From assembly GCA_949825045.1 (NCBI GenBank), contig OX463813.1, positions 372,001 to 436,000 of the forward strand: 64,000 nt of DNA, written 5' to 3'. The translations under genes were made by a program, and so were the position numbers. The DNA is from Argyresthia goedartella. Taxonomy: Eukaryota; Arthropoda; Insecta; Lepidoptera; Argyresthiidae. This document shows, piece by piece, positions 7,205 to 33,147 of this stretch (positions are counted from its first letter, which is position 1; the number at the start of each line of letters is the position of its first letter). The notes under the pieces were generated by a model. That model ran no database searches. It worked only from the letters and a program-made list of their open reading frames with translations, and had not been told where the DNA came from.

Positions 7205-7435
7205 GGGGCTTTTTGGGTCTGCATCTATTTTGTACCTAATTAGGCAGGATTTTGATAGAAATACTGAGTTTCGTGACCCTGGCGATATTTGGGACACTAA
7301 AGGTAAGACCGCACTAGGCGGTACTGCACCGCAGCGGAACTGAGCGACACGACGCATATTTTTTTTGGTAAACCGCACTTGGACTTCAGCGGCGCTACAA
7401 AAATATATTCAGTAGCTAGGCAACCTCCAAGCAAG

Positions 7436-7777
7436 ATGGACGACATGGACATGATTATTATTTCCTTGTTGTGCGAGGAAGAGGAAAGGATCGAGCAAGA
7501 ACAGGCAAGGAAAAAGCAAAGAATATGGCTACATGACATACCAAACTCGCGATATGATGAAGGCGAGTATTATACGCTTTTGCCACGACTTCAGAAGGAT
7601 CCAATAAGATTCCATACTTATTTTAGAATGTCTCAATACAAATTCATTGAGTTATTACAAATTATGCAGCCGCATATACAAAGGATGGACACACTATTCC
7701 GAAAAGCGATAGAAGTGGAAGAAAAACTCATGGTAATTGTCACCATGAGTTTTTCTTCCACTTCTATCGCTATCGCG
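7436..7777 (+). pseudogene. Harbinger A transposase, exon 1
   Basis: HARBI1-type N-terminus starting at the ATG of MDDMDMIIISLLCEEEE. It contains WLHDIPNSRYDEGEYYTLLP and FRMSQYKFIELLQIMQPHI, typical of the segment before the DDE domain. A splice donor GTAAGA follows at 7778 and the acceptor TTTCAG lies at 34892-34897, before exon 2. The end of this exon has been altered by a fold-back insertion (7742-7770), which changes the phase of the junction. Without that insertion an AG|GTAAG donor would join exon 2 in frame. An upstream non-ATG extension is unlikely to be translated. Confidence 0.75.
7706..7770. repeat. 29-bp perfect inverted repeat (fold-back insertion)
   Basis: Arm 1 is 7706-7734, the spacer is 7 bases, and arm 2 is 7742-7770, an exact reverse complement. 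Arm 2 lies inside the coding exon just before the splice donor. It looks like a templated snap-back copy primed by the natural short repeat CTCATGGT/ACCATGAG. Confidence 0.9.
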
Positions 7778-7898
7778 GTAAGATTTTTTTATTTATTGGT
7801 GACTTTTCATTAACTAAAATTATATAATTTTAAAAGGCAAATTAACAAAACATTATATGAGATCAAACTAAATTATAAAAAAAAAACAATGAACATTT

Positions 7899-8260
7899 TT
7901 AAACATTAGCATTATTGAGTAGACAGCCATCTGCAGTTAAGATATATTTCGCTGGTCCCAAAATACTTTGAGGTTCTGTATGTGCTTCCAGAACGTGAGT
8001 AGTCTGTGTCCGTAGTGTTGGTGTATTTTGGGATTTATTTAAATCAGATTTAAATGCATTTGGGTCCTCAAATTGTTCGTCAAGATAGATGGTTGTAGAA
8101 TCATCAAGATCTACTTGCTGAGCTGGAATATTTTGAGTTTGTCCTATTGTTGAATTTCTTTGCAAGTTCTCATATTCCAAGTTAGATACTGTTAAATAAA
8201 TGTCATTTTTTGCTTTCAACTGCAAGTCTGGAGGTAAATTCACGACGCAGTCAGCCATAT
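7899..8260 (-). pseudogene. Harbinger A MADF protein, C-terminal exon
   Basis: Minus-strand coding sequence reading MADCVVNLPPDLQLKAKN and ending at a stop near 7899. The start of the segment resembles the BESS-like region of insect MADF proteins encoded by Harbinger elements. It is the continuation of the reading frame that stops at 33148, on the other side of the large insertion. It lies inside the transposase intron on the opposite strand. Confidence 0.7.
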
Positions 8261-8800
8261 GCTTGTATTGGATTTATTTCTAAATAATTCTGAAACCAAT
8301 GTTCAATTTCATTTGTATTACAGAACACTGGTTAAAGGTAAATATGTCTTTTAAAATAAATAACTCCAAAATTGTCAGTTGTTACAATAGACAGACTGCT
8401 GATAGAGGTGGTTCTTTAATCTTTGTAAAAAATTATATTAAGGTGAAACAACGGAAATATATTCTTGTATTGGATTTATTTCTAAATAATTCTGAAACCA
8501 ATGTTCAATTTCATTTGTATTACAGAACACTGGTTAAAGGTAAATATGTCTTTTAACATAAATAACTCCAAAATTGTCAGTTGTTACAATAGACAGACTG
8601 CTGATAGAGGTGGTTCTTTAATCTTTGTAAAAAATTATATTAAGGTGAAACAACGGAAAGATATTCTTGCACTTACTGTTGAAAGACAAATAGAGGTATC
8701 CTGTGTTGAGTTAGATAGTTATTGTTTGTGTCTACAGATGAAAAAGGCCAAGGCAATTTATAATATTTGAGAAAATTATGGAGCAAGCACTAAACTATGG
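8261..8800 (+). pseudogene. CR1-like LINE 1, endonuclease fragment
   Basis: Encodes part of an apurinic-type endonuclease domain: FICITEHWLK, then a stretch with DRGGSLIFVKNY. A 202-bp segment is present twice in tandem (8262-8463 and 8464-8665), nearly identical. The 5' part of the LINE is missing at 8261, exactly at the Harbinger junction. Reverse transcriptase remnants of probably the same copy follow at 9236. Confidence 0.7.
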
Positions 8801-8810
8801 TCCTTTCTTT

Positions 8811-9230
8811 AGGCATGCAACGATACGCCTTTCTGCCGAGACGATATCGATACCGATACGCTTATAAAAATATCGGCGATACCGATACTGATACGCTTAT
8901 TGAATTAAAAAATGTTGGTTAAATAGATAAAATACAGGTTATTTTTTTAAATTAGGTAATATAAAAAAGCCAGGTTGATACAGTTTTAGTAGGTAATCTT
9001 ATCTTTAATCATATGTTTGTTTTAATATAGAGCGCGGGGTTTCCCCGAGCCTAGTTCGTGCGTCGTTTGCAACGAAATAGACGAAATAACACGTTACATT
9101 ACATTTTTAAAGCGAGAATTTTCAAAAGTATCGTTGTATCGGCCTTAAAAATATCACCGATGCCGATATGTCGACAAACCTGAAATATCACCGATATATC
9201 GGTATCGGTATCGTATCGGGTGCATCTTCG
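8811..9230. mobile_element. hAT-like MITE with GATACCGATA-rich ends
   Basis: The left end (AGGCATGCAACGATACG) and the complement of the right end (AGATGCACCCGATACG) are similar. Both sides are rich in clustered CGATACCGATA/TATCGGTATCG motifs. It is non-coding and interrupts the LINE 1 remnant. The target duplication is not clear, so the hAT assignment is tentative. Confidence 0.5.
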
Positions 9231-9235
9231 GGGTA

Positions 9236-9480
9236 CCTTTTAAAGATCTGCCTTTCATGGTGGAGAAATTGACTGGCATAGTGTTGTTTGTTGATGATAC
9301 TTCAATGGTCTTCAAAATTGAAGGACAAAAAGAAGATTTTGATGATGTTAATGGTGATGTTAGTCTTTAACCTTGAAGTGGTTATCAGTTAATAATTTAT
9401 TGTTAAACGCTGCTGCTGGTAAAACCAAGTGTATACAATTCTCACTTCCAAATGTCACACAATTCACATACTACCTGTAG
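9236..9480 (+). pseudogene. LINE 1 reverse transcriptase remnant
   Basis: Short decayed stretch encoding LFVDDTSMVFK (the F-x-DD catalytic block, with V instead of A), followed in another register by WLSVNNLLLNAAAGKTKC. These are adjacent blocks of a CR1/jockey reverse transcriptase. Most of the enzyme is missing. Confidence 0.65.
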
Positions 9481-9804
9481 TAAGTCAATTTATTTTCGAA
9501 AATATAATGTATTTACGCAAGAACCGTACAACATTTGCAAAAAATTACGTTAATTATCTACGATAATTAAGACATTTGATTTGATTTACATACGTTATTA
9601 AAATGTTTACACCTATAACATTCTATTCTATTCTATTTATATTTTAGTTTTAAAAAAAATATTTTTGTATAGTTGGTTTTCTGGTTTTCTGAAGTTTTAA
9701 TACTTAAATAACATAAATGTCAGATTTCTCTATCGTAGTCGATGAGTGACGTCGCGCTGGGCTGGGAGAGAGAGATATATAAAAAGAGAGAGAGAGCATC
9801 TCAC
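9481..9804. other. AT-rich spacer, GA microsatellite and exon-like duplicate
   Basis: AT-rich sequence with no gene, then a degenerate copy at about 9725-9765 of the exon segment at 9865-9900 (shared TCGTAGTCG.TGAGTGACGTC), then a (GA)n tract at 9765-9796. The duplicate hits a stop soon after. Confidence 0.5.
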
Positions 9805-9951
9805 GTTCAGCGGGTCCTCGCTGTCCAGCTCCCCTCCTTCTTGCAGCATCTGCAGCAAGTCTCTCTCGTAGTCGTTGAGTGACGTCACTCCGGGCCGAGT
9901 GCGTGTGCGCACCTGTTTCGCCTTCACGTCGCTCTTCCAGTCTTGGAACGA
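9805..9951 (-). CDS. Myb/SANT-like gene, exon B (candidate host exon)
   Basis: A 147-bp open exon of 49 codons, phase 0 at both ends. It has an acceptor (CCCAAG) at 9952 and a donor (GTGAGA) at 9804. It encodes SFQDWKSDVKAK and then LNDYERDLLQMLQEGG. This fits the second half of the Myb/SANT-like domain (Myb_DNA-bind_5, as in nuclear apoptosis-inducing factor 1-like proteins), where W..W.DWK...K is typical. The first half is encoded upstream on the same strand at 22884-22716 and 17543-17508. GC content and codon use differ from the surrounding LINEs. It could still belong to another transposon. Confidence 0.55.
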
Positions 9952-10023
9952 CTTGGGATAAAACTATAGATTAGTTGTGGTTTTTGGGTAGGTGTGGTAC
10001 TATGGTGTATTTGTTATAATAAT

Positions 10024-10424
10024 AAAAAACGGCCAAGTGCGAGTCGGACTCGCGCACGAAGGGTTCCGTACCACTGTACAATGGTAGGGATGGTGTGGAA
10101 TAAATGGTTTGGATTTTACATAGCAAAATGTTGTTTGCGGCTACTTTCACACTCTACCCAGGTTACACCTGTAACCAGTACATTCATAAGTTTGTATGTG
10201 GTATTGAAAAAATGGTTGTATGGGAGCCCCCTTAAATATTTATTTTATTCTGTTTTTTAGTATTTGTTGTTATAGCGGCAACAGAAATACATCATCTGTG
10301 AAAATTTCAGCTGTCTAACTATCACGGTTCATGAGATACAGCCTGGTGACAGACGGACAGTAAGACAGCGGAGTCTTACTAATATGGTCCCGTTTTCACC
10401 CTTTGGGTACGGAACCCTAAAAAT
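10024..10424 (+). repeat. Lepidoptera-type dispersed repeat, copy 1
   Basis: Begins with GGCCAAGTGCGAGTCGGACT and GGGTTCCGTA, and ends with GACGGACAGTAAGACAGC and GGTACGGAACCCTAAAAA. I know this element from memory as extremely common in moths and butterflies. It is non-coding, and its ends carry the inverted motif GGTTCCGTA/TACGGAACC. Confidence 0.8.
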
Positions 10425-10577
10425 CACAACAGAGGCAGAGTTGTGTCCAGCCTTTTGTAAATCTCAAGTTACGCAAAATATTATTAAAGCAGATAAACAT
10501 CTGTGTGGACTAGGGACGTTTTTCAACATCCCCGCGATATATCTAATGATGATCAAATACGATCGCAGGTTTCGCAG

Positions 10578-10660
10578 CTTGGTTGTGGTGGCACAATTGG
10601 TTTGATATCGGTTGCACAATCTTTAAGTTCTGGGTTCGAATCCACGTTCTGACATTTATG
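10578..10660 (+). repeat. tRNA-derived SINE head
   Basis: Pol III type A-box-like TGGCACAATTGG and a perfect B box GGTTCGAATCC, about 35 bases apart. The acceptor stem and D stem do not pair, so it is not a functional tRNA gene. Confidence 0.6.
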
Positions 10661-11041
10661 TTATTTTGTTTTAGATTTATTTCTTTTGTACGATATCGGT
10701 ACGATAGGGCATGGACGCGGGTATACCCGGGCTTCCCAAGATATCTGCAAACTTGGTTCCGAAGAAGTATACCCGGTTCCCCGGGGGTTCTTTAGAAACA
10801 TCAGAAATTACTTAATTCCGCAATAATAGCATTCAAATCAAGCGAGGGAGAGCCGTAAATGTGTAATTACAAAGTATCGTCGCGCGAGTTTAAAATCAGA
10901 TTTTACGGGATTTTTGAAAATGTACATTTCGTGATTTCGAACTTTAACACTTTAGATAAGGTTCAAATCCTATGAAATAAAATTGATCGTTTTATCAAAC
11001 GCTAGTAACAAGTGGGTTAAGACTGATGCACTCGTCGCACT

Positions 11042-11121
11042 CGTCGCACTCTCGCGCCGCCTTCGCCTGCCCCCCGCGCCATTCGTCGCACTCTCGCGCC
11101 GCCCTCGCCTGCCCCCCGCGT
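11042..11121. repeat. 42-bp GC-rich tandem duplication
   Basis: Two copies of a unit starting CGTCGCACTCTCGCGCCGCC (11042 and 11084), differing at a single base over most of their length. Confidence 0.8.
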
Positions 11122-11428
11122 ACCTTTGTTTTCTTATTTATACTATGCCTTTGTTTTCTCACCATGGGCACTGTGACCATATGTGGCAGTTTCCTGCCTT
11201 TTTGGCAGTATTAAGCAGAGTTTATACGAAGCCAGTCATGCTGGCGCCAGTCCTGCGACAAGCCAGTGTTGGCCTGGCCCCTGTTGTTTAGACGAGGCCA
11301 TTTCATTCGCGGATTTTTCTTCGGGTGTGCACACGTTTGAAGTAAAAAATAATGATTTGCGGCAAAGTCTATTGAAAAAAAAATGTTTAAGGAACATCTC
11401 TGCACTATTAAAAGAAGAGTTGATTGAT

Positions 11429-11806
11429 ATGTTAGAAAAAAAGAAAGCGAAACGACTTTGGATAAGAAAATGGTTAAGCGATAGACCTATAACTGGTGCT
11501 TCTGCCTTGTTGCTGAAACAACTAAGATTAGAAGATCCTTCTGAGTACAGGTTGGCGTTGCGGGTTACTGCTGAAAACTTTGATGAGTTACTTTCACTTA
11601 TACAGAGCTCGATTCAGCGCCAAGACACCCTGATGAGAGATGCATTACCAGCAAAAATAAAATTAGAAGTAACGTTATCGTTCTTAGCAACTGGAATGAG
11701 TTATCGAAGCCTGAGTCATTTTTACCGTGTTTCCAAACCATCTATATCAAAATTCATACCAGAAGTTTGTCGAGCAATCTATGAAGCATTAAAACAGTTT
11801 ATTAAG
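11429..11806 (+). CDS. Harbinger B transposase, exon 1
   Basis: First exon of a HARBI1-like nuclease. The start is the first in-frame ATG inside the element (MLEKKKAKRLWIRKWLSDR). It covers the N-terminal helical region with YRLALRVTAENFDELLSLIQ and LEVTLSFLATGMSYRSLSHF. The exon ends AAG|GTAAGA at 11806/11807. The acceptor TTTTTTTACAG ends at 12594, giving a phase-0 junction with exon 2. The intron of 788 bp holds the last exon of the antisense MADF gene. The frame upstream of 11429 runs into the terminal repeat and is unlikely to be coding. Confidence 0.85.
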
Positions 11807-11880
11807 GTAAGAGTTTATTTATTTACTTAAAATTGAAATAATAAGGCACACATTTTTAAAAATACAACTAACATGTGATA

Positions 11881-12489
11881 TTAAGCCTTATCGAAGGCTT
11901 GTTGAATGACATCACTGTTGTCTACGCTTTCGCCGTAACTTTCATAATTGTATGTAGTTTCTGGGGATACAATATTAGTAGTATACTGGGAACACGAAGA
12001 AGAACATGTCGATGGACTGGGCTCTGGAGGAGGACAGATTGTAGTTGTTGGCAGAGAGTATTGGGGTACTGTGAAGCTTGGAAGAACTTGTGTAGAATTC
12101 CAATTATTTTGCAATTGCATTTGACAAGAATACGCATTCTTGGCTCGTATATCTGTAAGCCTGCATTGTGTCAATATACTCTGTATCTTTTCCTTAGCAA
12201 TGACTGCCTGTTCCTCTGTCAATTGTTTCAATTGTGCCGAGACGCTTTTTCCAAATAGATCTAGTTCTGTTTCTTCAACGCATGTTCTGTCGTTAATTTC
12301 TCTTAAGTCACTTATCATGTTAGATATTTGTGTTAACTTGCTCCGCTTAGGTTTTGTGGGTGGGGTAAATTGTGGTATCTCTTCTGCCGACTCATTTTCT
12401 CCATTTTCAGAGCGTGGAACCAACGATGGTCCTGATTCATTGCTATTCGATGATCCTGGTTCATTGCTATTTGGTGTATCCATGTTATT
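11881..12489 (-). CDS. Harbinger B MADF protein, exon 2
   Basis: Second exon of the accessory DNA-binding protein. It begins after the acceptor TTTAATTACAG (AG at 12491-12490) and ends at a stop at 11881. It encodes a Ser/Pro/Asn-rich low-complexity region followed by a predicted helical stretch containing ISNMISDLREIN and LTEEQAVIAKEKIQSIL, where related proteins have the BESS-like interaction domain. Phase 0 matches exon 1. In PIF/Harbinger elements a Myb- or MADF-type partner is needed for nuclear import and end recognition. The exon lies wholly inside the transposase intron on the other strand. Confidence 0.8.
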   Translation of the reverse strand, partial: NNMDTPNSNEPGSSNSNESGPSLVPRSENGENESAEEIPQFTPPTKPKRSKLTQISNMISDLREINDRTCVEETELDLFGKSVSAQLKQLTEEQAVIAKEKIQSILTQCRLTDIRAKNAYSCQMQLQNNWNSTQVLPSFTVPQYSLPTTTICPPPEPSPSTCSSSCSQYTTNIVSPETTYNYESYGESVDNSDVIQQAFDKA

Positions 12490-12594
12490 CTGTAATTAAA
12501 CAAAATAAATTACTGTAATTGTAATGTTATAGTATGTTTGTGTCTAAAATTGTATTAAATAGGAGAGATTTTAATTACTATCCTTTTTTTACAG

Positions 12595-13359
12595 GTGCCA
12601 AATGCAGAAGAATGGAAAAACATCGAAAGGGGGTTTAAAACACGATGGAATTTTCCCTTATGTTATGGTTCTATAGACGGAAAACATGTGTCAATTAAAG
12701 CTCCTCCTAAAAGTGGAAGTTTATACTTTAATTATAAAAAAACAAGCAGCGTCGTATTGTTAGCTATTGCCGACCACGACTACTGTTTTTCGTACATAGA
12801 TGTCGGCGCATGTGGTAGCGCATCTGATGGAGGAGTTTTTAAGAATTGTTCGATTTACCGAGACCTGGAAAATAACTTATTACCTGACAGTGGAGTCATT
12901 GTAGGAGATGCGGCATTTCCACTAAAGACTTATTTAATGAAGCCGTATCCAGGTGTAAACCTCAGTACAGAAGAAAAAGTTTTTAACTACAGATTATCTC
13001 GGGCAAGACGGATAATCGAAAATGTATTTGGAATCTTAGTTAGTAGATTCCGGGTATTAGAAAAGCCAATACTGACTAACTTGGAAACAGTAGATGCAAT
13101 CGTTTGTGCTTGTTGCGCCCTTCATAATTGGCTACGAAAAAAAACAAGGTCTTACATCACCGTTACTTGTGTTGATAGGGAAGATGAACAGGGAAATTTT
13201 CTGCCCGGTTCATGGAGGAGTCAAATACATGCCCTACAGAGTATTGGCAATCAAGGTAGCAATCATTCAGCAGACACAGCAAGGGAGAAAAGGGACATTT
13301 TGAAAAATATGTTAAATAATGAAGGAAGAGTTCCTTGGCAATTAAATAGCATACATTAA
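12595..13359 (+). CDS. Harbinger B transposase, exon 2 (DDE domain)
   Basis: Carries the complete DDE_Tnp_4 nuclease core: YGSIDGKHVSIKAP (first Asp), VIVGDAAFPLKTYLMKP (second Asp) and SRARRIIENVFGIL (Glu), then ALHNWLRKK. There is no stop or frameshift before the natural end at 13359. Together with exon 1 it gives a protein of about 380 residues, within the normal range for the family. All three catalytic residues are present, so the product could be active. The exon lies wholly inside the intron of the antisense MADF gene. Confidence 0.92.
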   Translation: MPNAEEWKNIERGFKTRWNFPLCYGSIDGKHVSIKAPPKSGSLYFNYKKTSSVVLLAIADHDYCFSYIDVGACGSASDGGVFKNCSIYRDLENNLLPDSGVIVGDAAFPLKTYLMKPYPGVNLSTEEKVFNYRLSRARRIIENVFGILVSRFRVLEKPILTNLETVDAIVCACCALHNWLRKKTRSYITVTCVDREDEQGNFLPGSWRSQIHALQSIGNQGSNHSADTAREKRDILKNMLNNEGRVPWQLNSIH

Positions 13360-13570
13360 CAATCGACCTAGAAAATAAACATTGAAACGAAATTACATTT
13401 AAATGTACATACAAACATACATACACTGATCAAATACATAACCTTCTTTTGTTATGACATGTACCTGACGAGTAGTTGTGTATCTGACAAAACGCGTATC
13501 TGTAAATGGCTTTATAAGTTGCTTAAATGTAAATTTCGTTTAAAATAAATAATAATGTGATTTTACTTAC

Positions 13571-13909
13571 TATGGTTTTTCTCCTTATAGTAATCGGCTT
13601 TACAAACGAATCATATTCATCAAACCATTTTGCCTTTGGCTTATAAACGCTCCCCCCAGCCCCAGACCTCGTAGATTTTTCGATTTTGTCGAGTTCCAAG
13701 TAGTAAGTATTTCGAATACTTTTGATTTTTGATTTAACTTCATTGATAGTAAATCCATCTATATTCATTCCTAGACGAAGTTGTCCTAGTGCTGCAGTGC
13801 GCATTTCTTTATTTTTGTATGCATCACAACGTTTATCCCACAAGCATTCGTGCTCTCTATAAAGTTGTACGAATTTTAAAGTATCCTCTTCATTGAATTT
13901 TCTCGACAT
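13571..13909 (-). CDS. Harbinger B MADF protein, exon 1
   Basis: 113 codons starting MSRKFNEEDTLKFVQLYREH and ending at the donor GTAAGT (13570 downward). The domain reads CLWDKRCDAYKNKEMRTAAL, then INEVKSKIKSIRNTY and KWFDEYDSFV, the order seen in MADF (Myb/SANT-like) domains. An alternative in-frame Met lies 13 codons upstream (13948). The intron to exon 2 is 1081 bp and contains transposase exon 2. Whole protein is about 315 residues. Confidence 0.85.
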
Positions 13910-14059
13910 TTTGTCGCAGAGTTCCGAACAAAAAACTAAAACATACACACCGTATAGACGTTCGCCAGTGACTGCGAGAAGCGTCTACACGTGTCGCTGG
14001 CGCTGGCGCGGGGGTCGAGGGGTATGCGGGCGGAGGTCACTGGCTAGAAAAATAGGCCG

Positions 14060-14192
14060 GCGCTCTATTCACGCCAGCGTTGACTGCCAGCGCTGGCTTG
14101 GCTTGAAAAACTGTTTACACAAGGCAAATGCCACGCCAGCGCTGGCTGCCAGTCTTATTGGCAGCCAGCGTTGGCTTCGTATAAACTAGGCT
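14060..14192. repeat. Harbinger B right subterminal palindrome cluster
   Basis: At least four copies of GCCAGCGYTGGC-like half or full palindromes within 130 bp of the right end; looser copies (GCCAGTCATGCTGGCGCC) occur near the left end. These are plausible binding sites for the transposase or its MADF partner; that role is inference. Confidence 0.6.
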
Positions 14193-15017
14193 TTAGTCCA
14201 GTAAATTAACCTCTGGCAGATTATAGTGACGTTTTATGAAACTGGCAGTTTGTGGCAGTATTTCACGAAATTAAAATTTGAGAGAAAAAGTACCCAATTT
14301 TGAAATGGCCACATCCACATTACCTGTAGTATGGGACTGGGACTCCCCTTTGTAACTTTTGTGTTTATAGTTCATTCAATTATGAATCGTAACATAATAT
14401 GTCAATTTTTTTTAGTATAATTACTGCACAACATTTGATTACTTTTATTTCTGACTTCTTCGAAACCATTCACTTAATTTTTTCAAAGCCAATATTTGGC
14501 TGATAAAAATACTTCTTCTCAACTTTTGTAGTATGAATAGTTTTAATGACAACTTACTGAAACTTCCTTTTGTGTTTTCAAGTTGGAAGTATTAAAGTTT
14601 TCAAGTTTCTGTTTTTTACTTTTCTAGTTGCGGAATTCATTAGTTTCAGCTTGACGCTCAATAGGGAATTTTGTCAGGCAAAATAAGTATTTTTGTCTAT
14701 CAAAAACTAGATTTACGGTCATTTAAATACTACCATTTAAAATGTCGGCATCTTTTCGGTATTTTATTCGGAAAATGTGGCAGTGTTTGACATTAATTTA
14801 ATATCATGATAACTATGACTGATTAGTAAGCTAATAAATGTTGATTTATTATAATTTACCAACTTGATTTAATATAATTTAACAAATAATCTTCAGTTAA
14901 TCTGTGATTTATTTGATCATACATTTATTTATCAGTCGGAATCGGGAGAACCGGGATACCCAGGTCCGACTGCTTCTAGAACCGGGTATCAAAAATTTTA
15001 ACCGTAAGCGTGCCCTA

Positions 15018-15258
15018 GTATGGAGATATGAAAGATATGATATAACGTCAGTTAAATGTACTTAAGATAAATTCCTTATCTTATTGCTACGGCTTAGGTA
15101 CTCATGGTTAGTATCGGATTTCAGTAAACAATAAACTACTAATAAATAAAACGGTACTAAAGCCAATCTGGACAGCTGTGGGGAAAAGCTAGTAACCTTC
15201 ATAATTTCTTTATGGCATACAAATCATATAAAAAGTAAGGGTTACATAAAAATAGTGT
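15018..15258. other. Unassigned intronic or spacer DNA
   Basis: No gene or repeat recognised. Confidence 0.4.
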
Positions 15259-15310
15259 ACAAAGGCGAGCGTATCTCTAATAAGAGATCTCTTCCAGCAA
15301 ACCAGGTTAA
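15259..15310 (-). repeat. RTE-like LINE 3' UTR fragment
   Basis: GTACAAAGGCGAGCGTATCT, then GAGATCTCTTCCAGCAAACC. The same sequence occurs in inverse orientation at 48842-48890 inside a LINE 3' end. It is a short remnant of that family. Confidence 0.55.
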
Positions 15311-15474
15311 GATGGGAAAGGTTATTTGCTGAGCAGGGGTAGACCTATGTGTGCAACATAATATACCTAATATAACGAAATAAACGAATACTTACAAACA
15401 TATTAAAAAATAAAATAAATTATGTGAGTACATACTATTAACTAAATACTTATAATATACTATTGCTATAATAT

Positions 15475-16834
15475 AAAACTCAAAACTCAAAACTCAAAAC
15501 GTTTATTCTGTAAATAGGCCACAAGGGCACTTTCACATGTCATTTCATTTCATTTTTTACAGAACATTTGGTATTATTATCATATTATCAGAAAAAAAAA
15601 AAGTACTTAATTATTGTTTCTGAGAGATGTAAAGAGTCTCAAATGTCATAATAAAATAATTAAAATATAAATAACAGAGATGTATAGTCTCTTTAGTCAA
15701 TAATACAATGATAATAGGAGATGTAAATGGTCCCCACAGTCAAGTGTTGTATAATTAAATTAATCTTTGGAGGTGTAAAAGGCCTCCAAGTGTCCAGTAA
15801 AAGAAACTCTGGCAGTGAGGATGCTCACAATTAATTAGAACAATTCAGTCCCAAGCATTTTTATCGTCTATGTACTCTTTAATACTGTAGTAAGCTTTAG
15901 AAATAAGCCTTTGCTTGATGTATTTCTTGAACTTATTAATTGATAGATCTGTCAAAGTGCTTGGGAGTTTATTGTAAAATCTTACACAATTACCCTTGAA
16001 CGAGTTTTTTATTTTATGGAGCCGAGTAGTGGGCACTGCAAGTTTGTCCTTGTTTCTAGTATTAAAGTTATGTATATCACAGTTTCTTCGAAAGTTAACA
16101 ATGTTCTTATGGACATACATAATATTCTCGTAAATATATTGACTATGGACTGTCAATATATTTACTTCTTTAAACTTATTTCTAAGAGAATCTCTATTAT
16201 TCATTTTATAAATCGCACGAACAGCCCGCTTTTGCAGCACAAAAATAGTATTTATGTCAGCAGCACTGCCCCAGAGCAGAATACCGTAGGACATAATACT
16301 ATGAAAATAACTAAAATAAACTAATCTGGCTGTTTTTAAATCTGTCAAGTGACGGATTTTCCTGCATGCAAAAGCTGCAGAGCTCAGTCTGTTCGATAGC
16401 TTATCAATATGTGGACCCCATTGGAGTTTGGAATCCAACGTTATACCTAGAAACACTGTGCTGGTTACCAATTCCAATTCCTCATTTTTAATTGTTATAC
16501 ATGTCTGATTATTTTTAACGTTAGTAGTAAGAAACTTAACACATTTAGTCTTTTTCTCATTTAATAGCAAATTATTAACATTAAACCAATTTACCACTCT
16601 TGATATGGTATTGTTCACGTGATCATCAGTAGCGTGTTGGTTTCGCTTTGTTTTAAAAATAAGTGAGGTGTCATCAGCAAACAGTACCATATCATGACAG
16701 TCCCTTCCTAGATAGGGTAAGTCGTTTATATAGATGAGGAATAGGAAGGGTCCCAATATTGAGCCCTGTGGCACGCCCAAAGAAACCAATGATCCTGGTG
16801 ATCGTTCTCCGTTACGTCTACCCTTATACACTAA
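15475..16834 (-). pseudogene. CR1-like LINE 2, 5'-truncated, RT C-terminal half
   Basis: A single 328-codon frame (16831-15845) encodes the second half of a CR1/jockey-type reverse transcriptase: GVPQGSILGPFLFLIYINDL, MVLFADDTSLIF (catalytic FADD), VFLGITLDSKLQWGPHID and YGILLWGSAADIN. It ends in the thumb and connection region with FKKYIKQRLISKAYYSIKEY. A 3' UTR follows, ending in a tandem heptamer tail (AAAACTC repeats on the plus strand, 15475-15500). The endonuclease and the first RT blocks are missing, as in ordinary 5'-truncated copies. The frame that remains is open, so the copy is fairly recent. It sits in the intron between exons A and B of the Myb/SANT gene. Confidence 0.85.
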
Positions 16835-17198
16835 TAAATACTTATATGTAATTATGTATACTCCCTATAATTCAAAAGAGAGAGGTAATGCTTCTACACA
16901 CGACTTTTAAATATATTCAGAGTAGGACTGTCCCTGATGGTGCAGGGGAGTTCATTCCACTTTAATGTGGAAATCCTGCAACGACACCATAACAACATCT
17001 TAAAGCCTCAAAGAAGTACTCAAGCAGATACAAATGCCAACAATCAAGGAAGAAGTAAATCACACGACAAAAGGGATAAATACCAAAACGAGGTGGTATC
17101 AGCGCTAGGCACACTCCCTTCAAAAATAAATTTGAACAGGAAACATATGATCCAACTGAAACCTTACTAGGCAAACCAACGATGAAAAGGACTGCCTA
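16835..17198. other. Unassigned intronic DNA
   Basis: No gene recognised; the ORFs here show no known motif. Confidence 0.4.
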
Positions 17199-17396
17199 AA
17201 GTCAGACCGCCGAGTTGAAGGAATTTCGTACATTGACCCCTAGCTACTTGTCTCTTTCGCTCAATTCGTTCGTAAATTATATTGTCGTCGCGCTCGCACA
17301 GTTCAATTGTGAGCATGACGGCAATATCACGCGAGCGAAACAGACAAGTAGCTACGGGGCAATGTACGAAATTCCTTCTACTCGGCAATCGGACTT
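17199..17396. mobile_element. 198-bp MITE with ~60-bp inverted repeats
   Basis: Nearly two thirds of the element is inverted repeat: AAGTCAGACCGCCGAGTTGA on the left is matched by the complement of the right end, through GAAGGAATTTCGTACATTG and TAGCTACTTGTCT. TA flanks both ends (17197-17198, 17397-17398), suggesting a Tc1/mariner-type MITE. Non-coding. Confidence 0.85.
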
Positions 17397-17507
17397 TATC
17401 ACGCCCTAAAATCAAATACAAAAATTGCTAACAGAGTTGACTCATATCGCAAGTTAGCATAAACATAAGAAAAAAACTAATTGGTACAATGTTTACGTAG
17501 CAACTAC

Positions 17508-17543
17508 CTTCAACCATCGCTCAGCAGTCTTCCTAGGTCCCGA
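17508..17543 (-). CDS. Myb/SANT-like gene, exon A distal part
   Basis: A 36-bp coding remnant reading SGPRKTAERWLK, then the donor GTAGTT at 17507. This block follows directly on the WHDPSKILN segment encoded at 22720 in Myb/SANT-like proteins of this type (LN..GP+K....W pattern). LINE 3 lies between the two parts, so one exon has been split. Phase 0 at the donor agrees with exon B at 9951. Confidence 0.55.
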
Positions 17544-17973
17544 CTGTATACCAATTCAATTCAATTCAATTTGTTTATTGCAATAAATTACACGTTAGAT
17601 GGAGGTGTTACAGTTCGCATCACTTAGATACAATGTTATTTTACCCTTAAGGTGTAGCAATTAGTATAAAAAATAAGTATTTACATGAAAAAATATGTAC
17701 ACAACAACATTCATCCTCATTTAAAGTAAAATAACTCGCCTATAATTAATTAATAGTAAAATAGAAAACTGTGGTCATTTGATATTAATTTATTGGTCAT
17801 AATAATAATGTCAGTCATAATAATTAGGAGATAATTTCAAAATGTACATACACACACAGGATTCCATGTCAAAATTATTAAGTTCACTTAGGCTATGAGG
17901 ACACACATGATCATCAAAAGTTTCCCTAGTGCTACAGTTAATTGCATTTAAAATAAGTTATAGGTCATAATAA

Positions 17974-20869
17974 TCAGTCTGAATTAGGAGATAATTTCAA
18001 AATGTCATATACACATGATTCAATGTCAAAATTACAAAATTCACTTAAGCTGTAAGGACATATAAACACCAAAAGTTTTTTTAGTGCTATAAAAAATTTA
18101 CGATATTCTAAGACTACTAAGGCTTCTGGTAACTTATTGTAAACCTTTATGGCTATCATTTTTGTTCCCCGAGAGAAGGTAGTAGTTCTACATTGAGGAA
18201 CTTCTAGTTTTTTATGATTTCTTTCGTTCAGACGATTGCTGACACCAGGTGGTCTTTGAGGGAATTTTTCAGGGTGACGTCTGACCAATTTACACAACTC
18301 AATTATATATAACCCTGTTATAGTGTGTAGCTTAAGTTTTTTAAAAGAATCCCTGCACGAATCTCTGTTACTACCAACGTTATCCAAAATACGGACGCAT
18401 CTCTTTTGTAGGACGAAAATTTTATTTACGTCTATACTATTTCCCCACATTGCTAGTCCATAGAGGGTTCTAGATTGGAAGAAGGTGAAGTATGCCTGCA
18501 AGGCGGCTTTTTTTGTAGCTATTTTGTAAAGCGATCGTAATGCGTAGCAGAAGCTACTGAGTTTGTTCTCTAGGATCTCAATGTGTTTTTTCCAGTTTAG
18601 GTTTTCGTCGGTATATATTCCTAGGAACCTGGCATTTGGAACTAATTCAATATTTTTTTGGTCTAGCTTTAAGTTTAAGTTTATAGGTTTAGTGTTGTAA
18701 TTTCTGAAATGAATCAACTGTGTTTTGTTAGCATTTGTGTTAAGGTTAAGTTTTGGTGACTGATTCTGAAATCACATTCGAAAGGATTTCATTTTGGTCT
18801 CCTTGGAATTAAAAAAAAACAGATACATCGTCAGCAAACATAACAACTTTATCGTTTACGATTTTAGGTAGGTGGTTTACATACAAGAGAAAAAGTATAG
18901 GGCCTAGTATGCTACCCTGTGGCACTCCTCTGCCTATGTTTAATGTCTCAGATTCAATATTCAACATGGTTTTGGATTTATCCAAGATAGGCAAAACCAC
19001 GCTTTGCTGTCTACTTTCCAAGTACGATCTGAACCATTTATTTGTTTCTCCCCTGATTCCATACCTATCCATTATATCAAGTAGGATGTTGTGATTTACA
19101 TGGTCGAAGGCCTTTGACAGATCTAGTAAGACAGATATAACATTTTCCTTACGATCCAAACTTTCTGCCACAAAGTCACACATATCAAAAATTGCATCTG
19201 CTGTGGAGACACCCTCCCTAAAACCAAATTGCTCAGGTGATAAGATATTATTCAATGACAGGAAAGCTCCGAGTCTGTGTCCCATTACCTTTTCAAATAT
19301 TTTTGATAGTGTCAGAAGGAGAGATAAGGGCCTATAGTTGTTAATGTCTAACTTATCGCCTTTTTTGTGGATCGGTCTAACTTGGGCCTTTTTGAGCCTT
19401 TGGGGAAAGACACCTTCACTTAAGGATTTGTTTATGATAAATTGTAGTGGCTTTGCTACGGTTTCAAAGATAAATTTTATTACACAGGCTGGTATATGGT
19501 CATATCCGCAAGACATTTTGTTTTTAAGCGAACAGATAGTCTTTGTCAACTCATCCATAGACAGTGGTCTGACAAACATCGATTCTCGCGTAAATTGTGG
19601 TAATTCACAGCTTTCAGCAACATTACAATGTTGCGGTGGAACACTAACAGTATTCGTAAAGAAAATATTGAAAAGATCAGGCGCATCATAATCGGATTTA
19701 GTGGTGTTATCACCATCTGAGAGTCCAGTGAAACCATTTATTTCCACCGATCTTTTTCCTTTTACACTTTTGTTCACTAGTTGCCATGTAGTTTTGATTA
19801 TGTCATTAGACTTTATTATCTTTTTCTCATGATAGTTTTTTTTTGCTATTGATACAACCCTGTTTAATATTGAACAATACAGCCTATAATGATTTATCAG
19901 AGCTTCATCTTTATTTTTAGTTTTTTTCATCCTGATAAACAATTCCCTTTTCGTTTTGCAGGACTTTTTGATTCCCTGTGAGACCCAACCAGTATCAGTT
20001 TTGTTGTCAACATTATTTTTGACGCGAATGAGGGGGCAATTTACCTCAAAAGCACTTAAGAGGACATCGTGAAAGCAGTCAAATGCTGCATCGCAGTTTG
20101 ACTGTTTATATACATCCTCCCACGACTCGTTAGCCAGCTGGCTTTTTAAGTTCAGGAGATTATCGTTTTTCATATTTCTGACCACGGTGAAGTACACCGA
20201 TTTTACTTTCATTGGAACACTTATAGTAGCACATTGTAACGTGTGATCAGACAAGCCGACTTCAATTACATTTGCGTCATGCAGGGGCATATTTGATATA
20301 ATGTTATCGATACACGTGCTACTGTGCTGCGTAATGCGAGTTGGCTCGTATATATATCTTGTCATATTAAAGGACTCCAATAGGCAAATGAATTCTTTAG
20401 ATTCCGGATCATTAATCATTAAGTTGATGTTGAAGTCTCCACAGATTATAACCTTTCGCTCTTTGTGTTTTTGTATAATGTTTAGAATGGTGTCCATGTT
20501 TTCTATAAAATTATCGTTTCTGTCCTTCTTTGGTCTGTAAATGCAAAGAACAAAGGTACCGGCTAATTCAATACCACATACTTCTAGAATATATGGTATC
20601 GACATCTCCTGAATTTTTGGTACGTCTTTACATACTAAATTGTTCCTAACAAAAACAGCTGAACCCCCCTTAGAAGTTCTTTTCTTGCGGCAGTAACTAG
20701 CCGCCAGTTTGAAACCAGAAATATTAACTATTTGTAGATCTTCTATTATTCTATGGTGTTCTGTGATGCAGAGTATTTGAATGTTTTTTCCTTCCAAGCT
20801 ATTTAACCAAATTTCGAGTAGTGATACCTTTTTGTCATTTAAACTTTGAATGTTTATGTGTGCTATCAT
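17974..20869 (-). pseudogene. LINE 3 ORF2: endonuclease and reverse transcriptase
   Basis: The main frame (20869-18809, 686 codons) begins with an APE-type endonuclease: HINIQSLNDK, ILCITEHHR, VIICGDFNIN and VGLSDHTLQC. The reverse transcriptase follows: AQVRPIHKKGDKLDINNYRP, EQFGFREGVSTADAI, LLDLSKAFDHVNHNIL, RGVPQGSILGPILFLLYVN and VVMFADDVSVFF. The frame is lost at a run of nine A on plus (18811-18819) just after the catalytic FADD block. After a further shift it resumes in 18717-17974 with ARFLGIYTDENLNWKKHIE and LYGLAMWGNSIDVN. Apart from these indels the protein is full length (about 950 residues), so the copy was complete when inserted. Confidence 0.88.
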
Positions 20870-20895
20870 ACTTGCGCTTCTATTATCTTGTCTTA

Positions 20896-22710
20896 CTATC
20901 CTACTTGTGGGAGCTTTTGATCTATGCGGAAAACCTGGTTTATTCCTTCAATGTAGATTTCCCTTTGTTTTTCTACCTGTGCACGGAATATGTGAGGTAT
21001 TGTGCCCCTGTTTGGGGTTGCGGATCGTTTATTCCCTACTTTTGTGGTCAACGAAATGTTCGATTGATTTTTATATTCCGCATGTTGTTTATTCGGACCG
21101 TTTGTATTTTTGTCAAGAGAATATTGTTTTTGTCTTTCTGTCTGCCTGCGGAATATATAAGGTATTGTGCCTCTTTTTGGATTTGGAGATTCTACTTTTG
21201 TGGTTGACGTTGTTGTTGGTTTGATTTTACATACGGCAAGTTGTTTATATTTTTGATTCTCGAATAGGTACGGAATTGTTCCCTTTTTATTACTATTCCT
21301 TTGAGTACTATTATTTTGAGTTTTTTTTAGAGCAGCGCTTTTTACCCGACTGCCTTCAGAAGGGAGGGTTATGTTTTTTATATAAAGATTTTCATAATCT
21401 ACACTATCAATGTCAAGATTTAATTTTCTGCAGATATCGTATTGATTTTCTGCGTTTGCATCTATGAATTTTGTTGTATTGAAGTGATTACACAACAGTT
21501 TTATGTAGTGATTTTGCATGTCCGCATTTAGGAATTCATTGTTTGCAACTTTAACCACGTATACTCTTAGCTCTCGAAGTTTATACAATGCGTTGCACAA
21601 TCCAAAGACAAAATCATAGGGTTTTTTGTCATTTGATCCTAAAAGTAATACAACTACGTCATTTCTATTTGAATCTTTTAGCAAGCTATCACAACTTTTA
21701 AGGATATACATTGACTCTGCTTGAGGCTTGCTTAATGCACTGACATCATACTTATTGTTCCAATTATTTTTTCTTATAGCAAGTAGTTTTTGTGCCAGTC
21801 CTACACTATTTTGATCCCCTAGTATATGAATTTTCGGTTTCTTATTTGTTATTTCTACCAAACTGTTTTCAATATCATGTTTCCTAGCTTGTTTATATGA
21901 AGTTGAACTCTTGTCTTCTTCCTTTGTAGTTTTGATGAGAATTTGACTCCGTTTTATTAACATCTCAATTTTTTCGTTCATATCGTCCATTTGTTTTTTG
22001 AGATTTTTGTTTTCGCTGCCGAGGACTTCAATTTCATTGAGACTGCTTCGTTTTGTGTCGTCAGCAATAGTTGAACTGGTATCAAAATTGTTCTCAGCTA
22101 CATTAGAATTAGAACGTATTTTGTCTCCAGCATTTGCTTCGTTAGCATCTCCAGAATATTGTTCAAAATGTTTATTCATTTCCTCCAATCTTGTTGAATT
22201 TAATATATTTGGTTAGTGTGGTTCTTCGGTGTCTTCTATTATTTCGTTTGCATTTGACTTTTCGTTGGTATATATGTGATTTATAGTCCCTCCGGAATTT
22301 TCTAGATGCTGGTTCTCTGGGGTGACAACCGCATTTAACAGTTTTGATAAGCCGGTTTTCGGTGTACTAGATGCGGTTTTGGACTCTTTCTCTGTCGTTG
22401 TAGTAGATTCTATGTCTGTCGTGGGCTCCAGACTTACATCGGTCTTCTCCTTTTCGAAATCTTTGTCTGTATTTACGTTGACCGTGCTCAGTGTAGGGAC
22501 TATTTTGTCATTTAGTTTTATATTGTTTCTCCTGTATCGAACTATGTTTGTCTGGTTTTGTGTAGCCATTAGCATCTTCGGCTTTTTTCTTTTTCTGAGG
22601 TTCATTGGTGTCATTGATAATTCGGAATTATTTAGGGCTTTATATGTTTCAACGAGCTTGCGGAATTTATCCAGTTCGGTTTTGAGCGAATGATTTTGTA
22701 GGTTTAATTC
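20896..22710 (-). pseudogene. LINE 3 ORF1: coiled coil, SGNH-like domain, GTIP repeats
   Basis: One frame with a single in-frame TAA at 22215-22213. The N-terminal part has a Lys/Arg-rich and acidic low-complexity region. It is followed by a predicted coiled coil (EVLGSENKNLKKQMDDMNEK) and an SGNH/esterase-like core (IHILGDQNSVGLAQKLL, then DVVVLLLGSND). CR1 LINEs are known to carry esterase-like ORF1 proteins. Here the block-I serine of GDS is replaced by Gln, so hydrolase activity is doubtful. The C-terminus has three copies of a GTIPYIF-type repeat (GTIPYLF, GTIPYIF, GTIPHIF), each followed by a Gln and a basic stretch. Confidence 0.75.
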
Positions 22711-22715
22711 TCAAT

Positions 22716-22884
22716 TTCTTGGGTTCAGTATCTTGCTCGGGTCATGCCAGGAGTCCGTCTTCTGCTCAAAGGTCTCCATGGCTTTGCCTTTGCCCTTGAT
22801 CAGTTTGGGATGTGCCTTAAGATAGGCCAGCATTGCCTCGCGTTGCTCGGTGGAGATGTGGCGACTTCGCTGTAGGGATGACAT
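22716..22884 (-). CDS. Myb/SANT-like gene, exon A proximal part with start
   Basis: Starts MSSLQRSRHISTEQREAMLA and continues LKAHPKLIKGKGKAMETFEQ up to WHDPSKILN, where LINE 3 begins. The pattern (S..QR..ML.YL..HP.L..GK) is the N-terminal half of a Myb_DNA-bind_5/zeste-like domain. The ATG at 22884 is a plausible start, but CCTACAG at 22892-22886 region could also be a splice acceptor. Upstream DNA shows no further recognisable exon. The gene is inactivated here by LINE 3 unless another copy exists. Confidence 0.55.
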
Positions 22885-22902
22885 CATCAAATCAATGATC
22901 AA

Positions 22903-24330
22903 TCAATCAGTCGACATTCACCCACTCCTGAGTACAGGCCTCTTCTTAAACACGCCATTTACTCCTGTGCCTCCCACATCCACTGCCTAGGGGGCATCCA
23001 TTAATTATACCACGAGTTATGAGCGGTGGCCTAGAATGCGCAGTAGTCATTTTTAAATACCTGTACATATACGAAGTTATTCCCGCCAACGTCGCCCAGC
23101 GCTCTTAATTCGTGGCGCGAGGTATATGTGAGGTGGGGAGGTTTCAGCAAATATCACTTATTACGGAAAATTGGGTTAAATTCAAGTACAACATGTTTCT
23201 TGGCTTGACTAAACTATGCCAAAATGCTAATGTCATCCGTCCTGGGCAGCCATTCCCATCTGGGTAAACATAGCCTCATATATGTATACATTTTTGTAAT
23301 TAGAAACTCGCTGTTAATACATATTTGCGCTTTCTTTCTTTGACTCGCGCAAAAAAGTAAAGAGCATGACGATTAAGGTACATTGATTGACTCATTGGTA
23401 CACGCTCAGCATCGGGATTTGTGACAGACAGGTGAGCGTGTAGGGATTCCACCCCGGTCGGCATTCGAACCTGGGACCATCGCTTGTGAGTCAGAGAGAT
23501 CCATTACATTATAATGGTAGAATCACAATAATTTGCGGATAAAACAGAAAACATATTTACCGCACGCTCCATTTTTGGTTTAACTTCAGTTCAGCACCTT
23601 CACTATCACTCATAATCATCTGATCTTGCCGTAGAACCACTGATCCCCACAGAGTAACTTATTATCTGATCATTATTCTGATCCCTTCTGAACATATTAC
23701 TGGCAACATGTACTTTTAGGTAGGTATGGTGTTAGTCAAGAGCTAGTCACCGCCTAAGGCATGTGTCCACTTTTTCCCATAACAAAGATGAACTCCTAGG
23801 CGAACTTACTGAAGAAAAACATTGTAGGTAGGTTTGTAAGAAACAATGTCCTGGAGGCTTACCACAATCTCTTAGTTAGCAGGACTAAAGTAGGGCAGTT
23901 TATTTTCAATGTTTAAAATAAACTGCTGCCTTAAGGGGGATTTACACGATCAGTTCTACCGCATCCATTCGCAAGCCAACGCATGGTGTAAACAGTCAAC
24001 GCGCCGCCCTCAGAACGTATCGGCGACCGGATCGGTCGCCTCGCTAGGTGGCATATACTAATAAAAATTAATTTTTATTAGTATAGAGGTCAAATAATTA
24101 CGTAATTAGAATGTGGTTCAATGTACTGCCTTTCTCTTTTTATCCAGCTTAATAAGAGTATAGTAAATAATAATAAACCCTCCATAAATGCCATACAACA
24201 ATGGCCCGCGATGTTGAACCTTATTGTTTTGTAAGAAAAAAACCTATGAAAACATTGTCCGGCTATAAGCTATATAGCTTTGAAAAAGGAATATATAGGG
24301 TTCTCAATATCCTTTGTAGTTGGTGTCATT
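22903..24330. other. Spacer with SINE-like remnant and palindrome
   Basis: No gene. A minus-strand B-box-like GGTTCGAATGCC at about 23461-23472, with upstream similarity to a tRNA anticodon region (GACTCACAAGCGATGGTCCC), suggests a decayed tRNA-derived SINE at 23420-23530. The rest of the interval, apart from the palindrome at 24054-24085, shows nothing recognisable. Confidence 0.4.
24054..24085. repeat. 32-nt perfect palindrome
   Basis: TATACTAATAAAAATT followed by its exact reverse complement, with no spacer. Possibly the centre of a collapsed MITE. Confidence 0.9.
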
Positions 24331-24339
24331 GTAGATGAC

Positions 24340-27297
24340 CGTGAATCCATATTTCGCCCAGCCGGTGAGCGATGTACGTTTTATAAGTACGCGCGCTGTT
24401 TTTTATCCAATGTAGCACTGTCGTGGAATCACTCCAAAAGATTCGACGTTCTGGTTTTATTCTGTGTTCATTAGTTATTGCTTCAGCTCATCTAGCAGCT
24501 AAGACCGCAGAACCCAGCTCAAGACGAGGAACCGTCGTCGTTTTTAGCGTCGCGACGCGACATTTGCTTGCGATAAACGCCTGATGCACTTTGTTATTTT
24601 GTTGCCAGCGCCAATATGCTACTGCACTGCACTTTCGTGGACGCGTCGCAAAATAAATGAAGCTGCAGATTTTTATAACACTTCGTAGTACAGACTGGTT
24701 TCGGCACATGCGGGAGCGCATCATCTCCGCCCGGAGTACTGATAACAACATCTAGCTGCGTCCCGCTCGCCCTCGCGGTGTCTGCGCCTCGGTCGCTCGC
24801 ACCTGCGGCGGCCGAGTAATAATATCTAGGCAGACGTACTTCGCGCATTGATTTTAATTGACCAATCCATTTTAACCATTTTTCGTAAATAATGTCTGGT
24901 ACAGGTTCATCCCAATTTATCTGAAGTTGCCAAGCTTGCTGAATAATTAATTTTCCATTTATTGTGAAAGGCGATAAATATCCATAAACGTCAAAAATCA
25001 ACATAATGACTCGTAATATGTCTCTTTTCGTGGGCCTTTCTTTCCCGCTAATTATATTTTCAGATAGCTTCTTCAACGAAACGTCGAACCCGAGCGTGTC
25101 TTCATTGGGATTCCATAACAAACCAAGTGTTCGTTCGCCTTCGCACTGTTGTCCGACTTTGAACTTTACTGCACTACCACCGAGAGTCTCTTGGAATGCT
25201 GTTGATGACGGTTTCGCTGTTACTGTTCCAGTTACGTATATGAAAATTTCCCTGTGCATGTATATAAGTGACGTCACGAACTAGCTTCATTGCGGTTTCT
25301 TCATCAGGTAAGCTATCGATATAGTCATCTACATAATGTTGCGTGTATATAGCATTAGCTGCCTCTGGCATAGTATCTTCGAAGCGTCGTACGTTTTTAT
25401 TTTTGATTAACTGTGCGATGAATGGTGAGCAGTTCGCGCCGAAGATTAGTGACGTCATCAAGTAGGTATCTATAGGATCTTCAGACTTATCTCGGTATAA
25501 GAAGCGTAAGGCGTGTTGATCTTCTGGTTTAATTTTAACTCTTAAAAACATGTTTTTTATATCTCCGGAGACGGCGATTTTATTTTCACGGAAACGCCAC
25601 ATTATGCCTATTAGCGCCGTAAGTAGGTCAGGACCTTTATATAGGTAATCGTTAAGAGATAATCCTTTTGATGCAGCAGCTGCGTCGAATACCAATCGGA
25701 GGGCTTTCTTATTTGGATTATCTATTCCAAAGCTAGGTAGGTACCACGTTTTAGACGTGACGGCTGGATTCTCCAGCTTCTCCGCGTAATTGTTCTCCAA
25801 CAAATGTTGTATGCGTTCTTTAAACCTTCGTGCATACTCTTCATTCCTTTTCATTTTCAGCTCCACTCCCTTTAGTCTCGTCAGAGCGTTTGGAAAGGAG
25901 TCAACGGTGACGCAATGAAGATCTTTCCAAGGTAAGCCCACTTGCCATTGGCCATCGATAAGTTCAGAGGTTTGTTCCAGGTGCTCCTGGGCCCGTACGT
26001 CCTCCGAGTTCTGCCTAGGTTTAGCAGATACGCCCATGGAATCGATGGAGAAAGACTGTCGAATATCCTCATGTAGTTCACGAAGTAGTTGATTGTTTTC
26101 CATTATTGTATTTTGCTCTTCGCTGTGACGAACGTGTAATGACGTGTGTATACCTTTTTGTGCCATTACAGATGCCGGCGCTCTTCCATGAAGGCACCAG
26201 CCCAGCGGCGAGCGAGTAGCACAAGGCTCGTGCTCTCCACCCCGTACCACTTCTAGAGGTACAAGTAAGTGGTAGTTATCTTGTCCAATAAGTATTTCAG
26301 GTTTCAATTGTTTAGTGCACAAGTTTTTCTTTATAGGTTCCAGGTACTTGTAGTTCTCGCATTTTACAACACCTAGGTTTTGTGCAGGTAAGTTAAAATT
26401 GTCCACACTGCGCGCATTTAATGTAAACATTGTTCCATCATTATTAGACAACGTGCAATTGATAAGCTGAGTTTCACACAACAGTTCCGTACTGTCCCAA
26501 GCGCCGCGCACTCGTAAACATTCCCGGCGCCCGCGCAGCCTGGCCCGCTCGGCGAGGTTTGCACTAATTAACGAAACACTCGACCCATCATCAAGTAGGC
26601 AAGTCGTGCTAATTTTACCGTTAGGTCCATGAATTATTATTGGCACGACCTTTAATAGTACTTCGCACTTATTAATGTTTATATGCGTTACAGTTTCGGT
26701 TTGAACACCATTGTCCGTCACTTCCCCTACCGCATAGTGGTTTTGGCGTGAACTTTGCCCCGGTACATAATGCAATAGCCGGTGGTGAGATTGACCGCAC
26801 CCCTCCACGTCGCACTCGGCGGCTGCGCACGAATGTCTATCATGGTGCGATAACAAACACTTGTAACATAAACCGAATCGCTTCACATACTGCCATCTGT
26901 CTTTGCATAGTGATTTTTTGAACTTTTTGCACTCCGGTAAATTATGTTTTCCTATGCGACAAAAACGACATTTATCACTGCTGCTCGTATGTCCACTTTG
27001 CACTAAAATAGTTTGCGGTTTATAGTCACTGTTTTCATAGTTCCTACGTTTATAGTCCGGTCGTACTTGCATAAGAGAAGTACTGCAGGTTGATACTTTC
27101 ACAGCTTCTTCATGAAGAAAATCGGCGAGAATGTCCAGTTTAGGTTTAGTTCCCTCTTTTATTAGCGTGTAACTATAGTCTGTCCACTTAGGTAGCAACA
27201 CTGTAGGTATTTTGGACAACACAACAGCGACTATGTTCACTTCTTGCAGGTACTCGCCACGATCCAGCGCCCGAACAGCTGTAACGTAGTTTTTTAC
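24340..27297 (-). pseudogene. BEL/Pao retrotransposon, gag end, protease, RT, RNase H
   Basis: The minus-strand reading runs from the end of gag (27297) through a zinc-knuckle region (CRFCRIGKHNLPEC, GLCYKCLLSHHDRHSC) and an aspartic protease (CLLDDGSSVSLISANLAERA). A reverse transcriptase follows, with the catalytic YVDD in TQHYVDDYIDSL. After a frameshift near 25200 the Peptidase_A17/RNase H-side region follows (LHLFCDAS, then VPRLELGSAVLAAR). RNase H motifs (FWSDSTTVLHWIK) reach about 24340. The integrase and the 3' LTR are missing. Several frameshifts are present. The 5' part of the element is at 31962-33142, separated by LINE 4. Confidence 0.9.
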
Positions 27298-27314
27298 GAA
27301 AATACATTAGACTT

Positions 27315-32877: not shown

Positions 32878-32919
32878 CTTTGGTGTGTGATACATTCAAA
32901 TCCGGTTCGAAGACCACTT

Positions 32920-33142: not shown

Positions 33143-33147
33143 ACACA

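Follow-up and report, generated by a model that had tools for sequence, protein, structure and literature searches.

The 64,000-nucleotide window analysed here (contig OX463813.1 of the lepidopteran Argyresthia goedartella, assembly GCA_949825045.1, positions 372,001 to 436,000) contains a complete-looking PIF/Harbinger transposon of 2,979 bp, hereafter element B (window positions 11214-14192), whose two genes are, as read from the DNA, almost certainly nested in each other. The transposase (T) lies on the plus strand and a MADF protein (M) on the minus strand, and their exons follow one another in the order T1(+), M2(-), T2(+), M1(-), i.e., the genes are convergent and mutually nested (Table 1). 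Each gene has its last exon, its stop codon and an AATAAA inside the intron of its partner. The spliced products are a transposase of 380 amino acids (aa) and a MADF protein of 315 aa. We consider it likely that element B is a two-gene PIF/Harbinger whose introns store the last exon of the partner, an arrangement that would pack and lock the two genes, with antisense coupling as a side effect. Table 1 also covers a second, older element of the window, element A.

Membership in PIF/Harbinger is indicated by a DDE_Tnp_4 transposase, 3-bp target site duplications (TSDs; TTA in element B and TAA in element A), terminal inverted repeats (TIRs) and a second gene encoding a MADF protein. The target duplication of the family is TWA. 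In element B, T2 matches DDE_Tnp_4 (PF13359) at 4.9e-36 and M1 matches MADF (PF10545) at 5.7e-14 in Pfam, and the transposase has three acidic residues, D154, D231 and E268, which we take to be catalytic. TAA or TTA is also the PIF/Harbinger TSD given in the accessible part of PMC2213677.

GCTGGC/GCCAGC words occur near both ends of element B, one on the left (11240-11245) and eight on the right (13996-14169). These are possible candidate binding sites for the MADF protein.

Table 1 Features of elements B and A (window coordinates).
Feature	Position	Strand	Remarks
Element B, TSD, left copy	11211..11213		TTA
Element B, TSD, right copy	14193..14195		TTA
Element B, left TIR	11214..11234	+	21 nt, 19/21 identical to right TIR
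Element B, right TIR	14172..14192	-	
Element B, transposase exon 1 (T1)	11429..11806	+	N-terminal part, from first in-frame ATG
Element B, transposase intron	11807..12594	+	788 nt, phase 0, contains entire M2
Element B, transposase exon 2 (T2)	12595..13359	+	DDE_Tnp_4 domain
Element B, AATAAA past transposase stop	13374..13379	+	Within MADF intron
Element B, MADF exon 1 (M1)	13571..13909	-	Entire MADF domain
Element B, MADF intron	12490..13570	-	1081 nt, phase 0, contains entire T2
Element B, MADF exon 2 (M2)	11881..12489	-	C-terminal region; FGKSVSAQLK...IQSIL block conserved in relatives
Element B, two overlapping AATAAA past MADF stop	11814..11823	-	Within transposase intron
Element A	7301..36445		TSD TAA (7298-7300, 36446-36448); terminal 50 nt 48/50 identical; insertion-broken
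Element A, transposase exon 1	7436..7777	+	GTAAGA donor at 7778
Element A, probable 3' part of M2	7899..8259	-	Left of insertion; placed by frame and position only
Element A, 5' part of M2	33146..33540	-	Second half of MADF domain (profile 44-84, 1.5e-7)
Element A, T2	34898..35774	+	Two DDE_Tnp_4 pieces (5.2e-10, 1.5e-15); stops and frame change
Element A, M1	36002..36137	-	First half of MADF domain (profile 8-37, 3.7e-5); GTAAGT donor at 36001

Exon borders and homologues

A preliminary description, made from the letters and the open reading frames (ORFs) of this stretch, had placed the four exons of element B where Table 1 has them, correct to the base. It had also claimed that the two genes are threaded through each other over four good phase-0 junctions, and this too was borne out. 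M2 lies wholly in the T intron and T2 wholly in the M intron, and homologues span both junctions. Further support for the threading comes from conserved intron borders, from antisense read-through in two relatives and from the exon order of element A. That each pre-mRNA must splice out the antisense exon of its partner, as had been stated, follows from the geometry.

All four junctions are GT..AG in phase 0. With a slash at the exon border, the T donor reads AAG/GTAAGA and the T acceptor cctttttttacag/G, while the M donor reads ATA/GTAAGT, perfect on the intron side and weak on the exon side, and the M acceptor tttaattacag/A. Splice consensus alone proves little here, because neither GTAAGW (2 and 2 observed on the two strands versus 1.96 and 1.44 expected from 200 shuffles) nor AATAAA (4 and 4 versus 3.0 and 3.1, 200 shuffles) is rare at such composition. 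The junctions nevertheless go beyond chance, because they are positioned exactly where full-length homologues need them.

The transposase relatives considered are the 120 listed of 4,413 matches, 33 of which come from contig collections only. For both genes of element B, the nearest named proteins among the matches listed are from the moth Leguminivora glycinivorella. The transposase of this species (P0015; 89% identity, 99% coverage) is identical and ungapped over ALKQFIK/VPNAEEWKNI, and its MADF protein (P0002; 57% identity, 100% coverage) is gap-free over RRKT./NN. Both are on contigs of equal listed size (25,267,037). Furthermore, the MADF domain is joined to the M2 block in single proteins of Leguminivora, Bombus, Andrena and Callosobruchus. 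These homologues bear directly on the alternative that there is no functional interlock, in which M1 alone would give a short MADF protein, M2 would be a separate gene and T2 would be expressed from its own start. The unspliced M1 frame does end at 13523, an ATG is present in M2 at 12483 and the T2 frame is open from 12559. However, single proteins that join the domain to the M2 block, a full-length transposase ungapped over the T junction and the splice-site signatures at the T acceptor and M donor of relatives all speak against this alternative, which we regard as very improbable.

The signatures are found in ORFs that run across an exon border. Exon 2 alone is covered by 18 of the 33 contig-derived transposases, and the head of the ORF extends past the T junction in 13 of these 18, with two others starting at the junction and three within exon 2. 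All 13 have Q directly before V/I-P, which fits read-through of a CAG acceptor. At the M donor, V (GTN) stands directly past the junction residue in 20 of 22 MADF exon-1 ORFs, with the junction motif fitted by eye (one alternative was admitted, for P0160 only). The exceptions are P0177, which has D at that spot and V two residues later, and P0169, which does not follow the pattern. P0182, a MADF ORF of 27% identity whose frame continues without the V pattern, is excluded from the 22; counting it gives 20/23. We infer that both introns of element B would be spliced like those of any other gene.

The MADF poly(A) signals on the minus strand have their first bases at 11823, 11819 and 11803, and the T donor is at 11807. 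Given these positions near the T donor, the mature T and M RNAs may share a few bases at the T1 end. In elements A and B alike, the antisense of a MADF-strand AATAAA lies within about 20 nt past the T donor.

Antisense transposase sequence in MADF introns of relatives

The read-through residues of MADF exon-1 ORFs were compared, by codon compatibility, with the antisense of transposase C-termini. In the tail of P0148, every position (30 of 30) is compatible with the antisense of the C-terminal 29 residues plus stop of transposase P0099, and the score of 93.5 bits compares with a shuffle mean of 19.2 and maximum of 25.9 (150 shuffles). The tail of P0147 fits the antisense of the same C-terminus, stop included, at 17 of 17 codons in another frame (43.2 bits; shuffle mean 20.5, maximum 27.9, 150 shuffles). 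When the P0148 tail was run against whole transposases, shuffles reached up to 32.1 (60 shuffles). The known antisense frame of element B was recovered by the same test as a positive control. Matches of 33-36 bits (maximum 36.0) between four MADF proteins and a leucine-rich stretch of P0097 were judged low-complexity noise and rejected; P0147, at 43 bits, is not far above them, and P0148 is well above.

In the P0148 and P0147 relatives, the MADF intron runs for about 70 and 225 nt before it meets the transposase stop, compared with 211 nt in element B. Judged by these codons, element B is not the only copy to have T2 within the MADF intron. By the same reading, M2 of these relatives is not between T2 and M1. 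If present, it would lie beyond T2, either in the transposase intron, which would make a full interlock, or beyond T1. P0148 and P0147, which closely resemble each other, may represent one lineage. The reverse test, in which 81 of the 120 transposases (up to P0096) were compared with MADF proteins in antisense, yielded no score beyond noise (≤28.0 bits).

Contig sizes were also compared wherever one was listed, which was the case for 94 transposases and 59 MADF proteins. Nine transposase-MADF pairs are on contigs of equal listed size, and among short contigs there are four such pairs, against an expectation of 0.26 from jitter (at most 3 in 2000). This suggests that T and M genes are located together, in an order that equal sizes do not give, and so lends the nesting little weight. 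The P0058/P0173 pair (1193) would fit only if its ORFs overlap, and no arrangement tried allows a feasible overlap; we attribute it to chance or to a cluster artefact. The P0054/P0170 and P0112/P0168 pairs show no ORF overlap either.

Element A

Fragments resembling Harbinger, at 7.4 and 35 kb of the window, turned out to be the two ends of one older element, element A. Its T1 is 35% identical to that of element B, and its exons follow the same order, T1(+), M2(-), T2(+), M1(-). The MADF domain is split either side of T2, and M1 and M2 joined match the profile over 8-84 (3.7e-19). No MADF-type Pfam match was found in the frame taken as the 3' part of M2 (7899-8259). The element is interrupted by approximately 25 kb of other DNA, element B included (8260-33145 as judged by eye, flanked on either side by CATA), and also by an apparent mariner ORF (33688-34893, read by eye). 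As read from its coding sequence, element A is dead, because T2 has stops and a frame change.

The recurrence of the order bears on a further alternative, namely that the arrangement is an accident of rearrangement or decay in one copy, element B. The region of the transposase start does seem altered relative to several relatives. Position 11429 is merely the first in-frame ATG of element B. Six relatives (P0016, P0020, P0024, P0026, P0034 and P0015) have 9-52 extra N-terminal residues and two (P0070 and P0133) have none, and similarity to relatives begins upstream, from 11357 (P0053) and 11369 (P0028). No in-frame ATG was found in this upstream region of similarity. The transposase of element B may thus start late or have lost its original start, and the copy may be impaired. 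Against an accident, both spliced frames are open and the ends of element B are intact, T2 lies in the M intron in two relatives, and element A has the same order; we give this alternative hardly any weight.

The intron positions of element A, taken from tblastn rows, differ from those of element B. The LLATG motif, where query residue 85 is aligned to 34899, is the point at which the transposase is split, about 42 codons ahead of the element B intron, and the MADF intron is inside the domain in element A and past the domain in element B. The intron phases also appear to differ (2 and 1 in element A versus 0 and 0 in element B), with the transposase phase of element A read from the acceptor side; the hairpin described below disturbs the donor side. 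Converting one plan into the other would require coding sequence to be moved across the exon of the partner, and for this reason two origins of the interlock are simpler than one, which is where the comparison points. Alternatively, a common ancestor of A and B may have had more exons. Mutual antisense nesting might be a recurrent design of insect PIF/Harbinger elements, with at least two origins and kept for gene locking and for expression coupling via shared pre-mRNA, a generalization that we put forward tentatively and with some doubt.

T1 of element A contains, just before the donor, a hairpin (7705-7771) whose 7-nt loop separates the arms of a perfect inverted repeat of 30 bp; it has the appearance of a templated inverted duplication. 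The left edge of the large insertion carries a 202-bp unit in tandem duplicate (8257-8669, 98% matches). BLAST found no long terminal repeats at the two ends of this insertion.

Role of the nesting and known systems

With introns used as storage for the last exon of the partner, two intron-bearing genes would be packed into 3 kb. T and M would also be locked together, because no single deletion or crossover could remove or separate one without cutting the other. Packing and locking have, in our estimate, an even chance of being the main role of the nesting. Before splicing, the T and M transcripts would be complementary to each other over approximately 1.6 kb (about 11800-13395), and after splicing over almost nothing. 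Antisense coupling, through interference or duplex-derived small RNAs limiting both proteins, would be a probable side effect and perhaps a benefit.

On the other hand, the interlock could be primarily a self-limiting control, with pre-mRNA pairing or polymerase collision over the approximately 1.6 kb capping output or feeding small RNAs while the spliced mRNAs escape. The geometry itself gives a long pre-mRNA overlap with almost no mature overlap. The order is found again in the diverged element A, and two relatives have half of it, a recurrence that fits a selected role, and accessible passages of PMC6545626 describe antisense gene pairs overlapping retained introns in Giardia. Compactness or chance retention would, however, give an identical sequence picture, and we consider a primary control function unlikely.

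Several observations weigh against a packed and locked pair as proposed here. M2 inside the T intron was observed in elements A and B only, and not in relatives, which were compared as proteins and ORFs. Of 13 MADF tails tested (≥14 residues; nine shorter ones were skipped), only 2 enter a transposase. The other 11 gave background scores, and all of them are shorter than the spacing in element B, yet five exceed the P0148 spacing and carry no transposase antisense. The P0058/P0173 pair, at first apparent support, failed the overlap test. The M acceptor is visible in a single relative, P0014, whose frame reads ...LQ ahead of the exon, and the T donor in none; the latter is outside the ORF comparison, exon-1-only ORFs being too short for the search. 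The original transposase start codon is possibly missing in element B. In addition, a single ORF contains the parts of both exons in 15 of the 33 contig-derived transposases, as it does in the MADF protein P0011. The 15 would be intronless genes or cDNA contigs, and relatives without the intron, or cDNA contigs, would accordingly be common. At the T junction, P0090 carries an insert of only about 30 residues, which could not accommodate an M2 exon if it is intron read-through. The sole locus from a scan of genome contigs (JAHZIU010000197.1, filed as a betaproteobacterial metagenome-assembled genome and probably eukaryotic contamination) encodes a 41% identical Harbinger transposase that reads across the T intron site in one frame. 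Because of the short P0090 insert and this one-frame reading, the interlock is not in every Harbinger. Scans of viral contigs with P0036 and transposase alignment A2 found no relative.

PIF/Harbinger transposition is reported to need two proteins (PMC9710019), and the accessible passages of that paper describe insect elements with a transposase and a MADF/Myb-like partner as two genes, as in element B. Some of the domesticated insect pairs are adjacent, and their directions are not always equal. Unlike in element B, the genes in these passages lie side by side (separated by 97 and 179 bp in Anopheles), with a single-transcript annotation for one pair, and no alternation of exons on opposite strands is described. 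Harbinger elements of Ectocarpus are described as having "two tail-to-tail genes" (PMC12477816), convergent as in element B, with mutual nesting unmentioned in the passage available. The Medicago MtPH elements (PMC2213677) likewise have two genes and a transposase with introns, whereas the transposase stands before or after orf1 and the sections seen do not mention antisense nesting. Opposite-strand genes within introns are a known class among metazoan host genes, the nested or embedded antiparallel genes treated in PMC2330155, as far as the portion available goes. In that class, an intron of one gene encloses the whole of the other, while in element B only the last exons are enclosed, each holds that of the other, and the pair is in a mobile element. 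By title and start of abstract, no description of mutually nested genes in a Harbinger was found in the open literature, Repbase reports being outside this search. Novelty is provisional, and the remark in the preliminary description that such interlocking seems undescribed agrees with this search.

The means by which a mobile element holds its two genes together is of practical interest, also for understanding why both are so often domesticated jointly. Locking the exons of each gene into the introns of the other would account for the linkage and would make antisense overlap part of the element. With two cases in a single 64-kb window, a survey of existing insect genomes and RNA data seems feasible at once.

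Elsewhere in the window, a 22-kb array of a 111-bp satellite (41921-63964; 198 copies, 84% matches) contains an ORF at 49490-50224.

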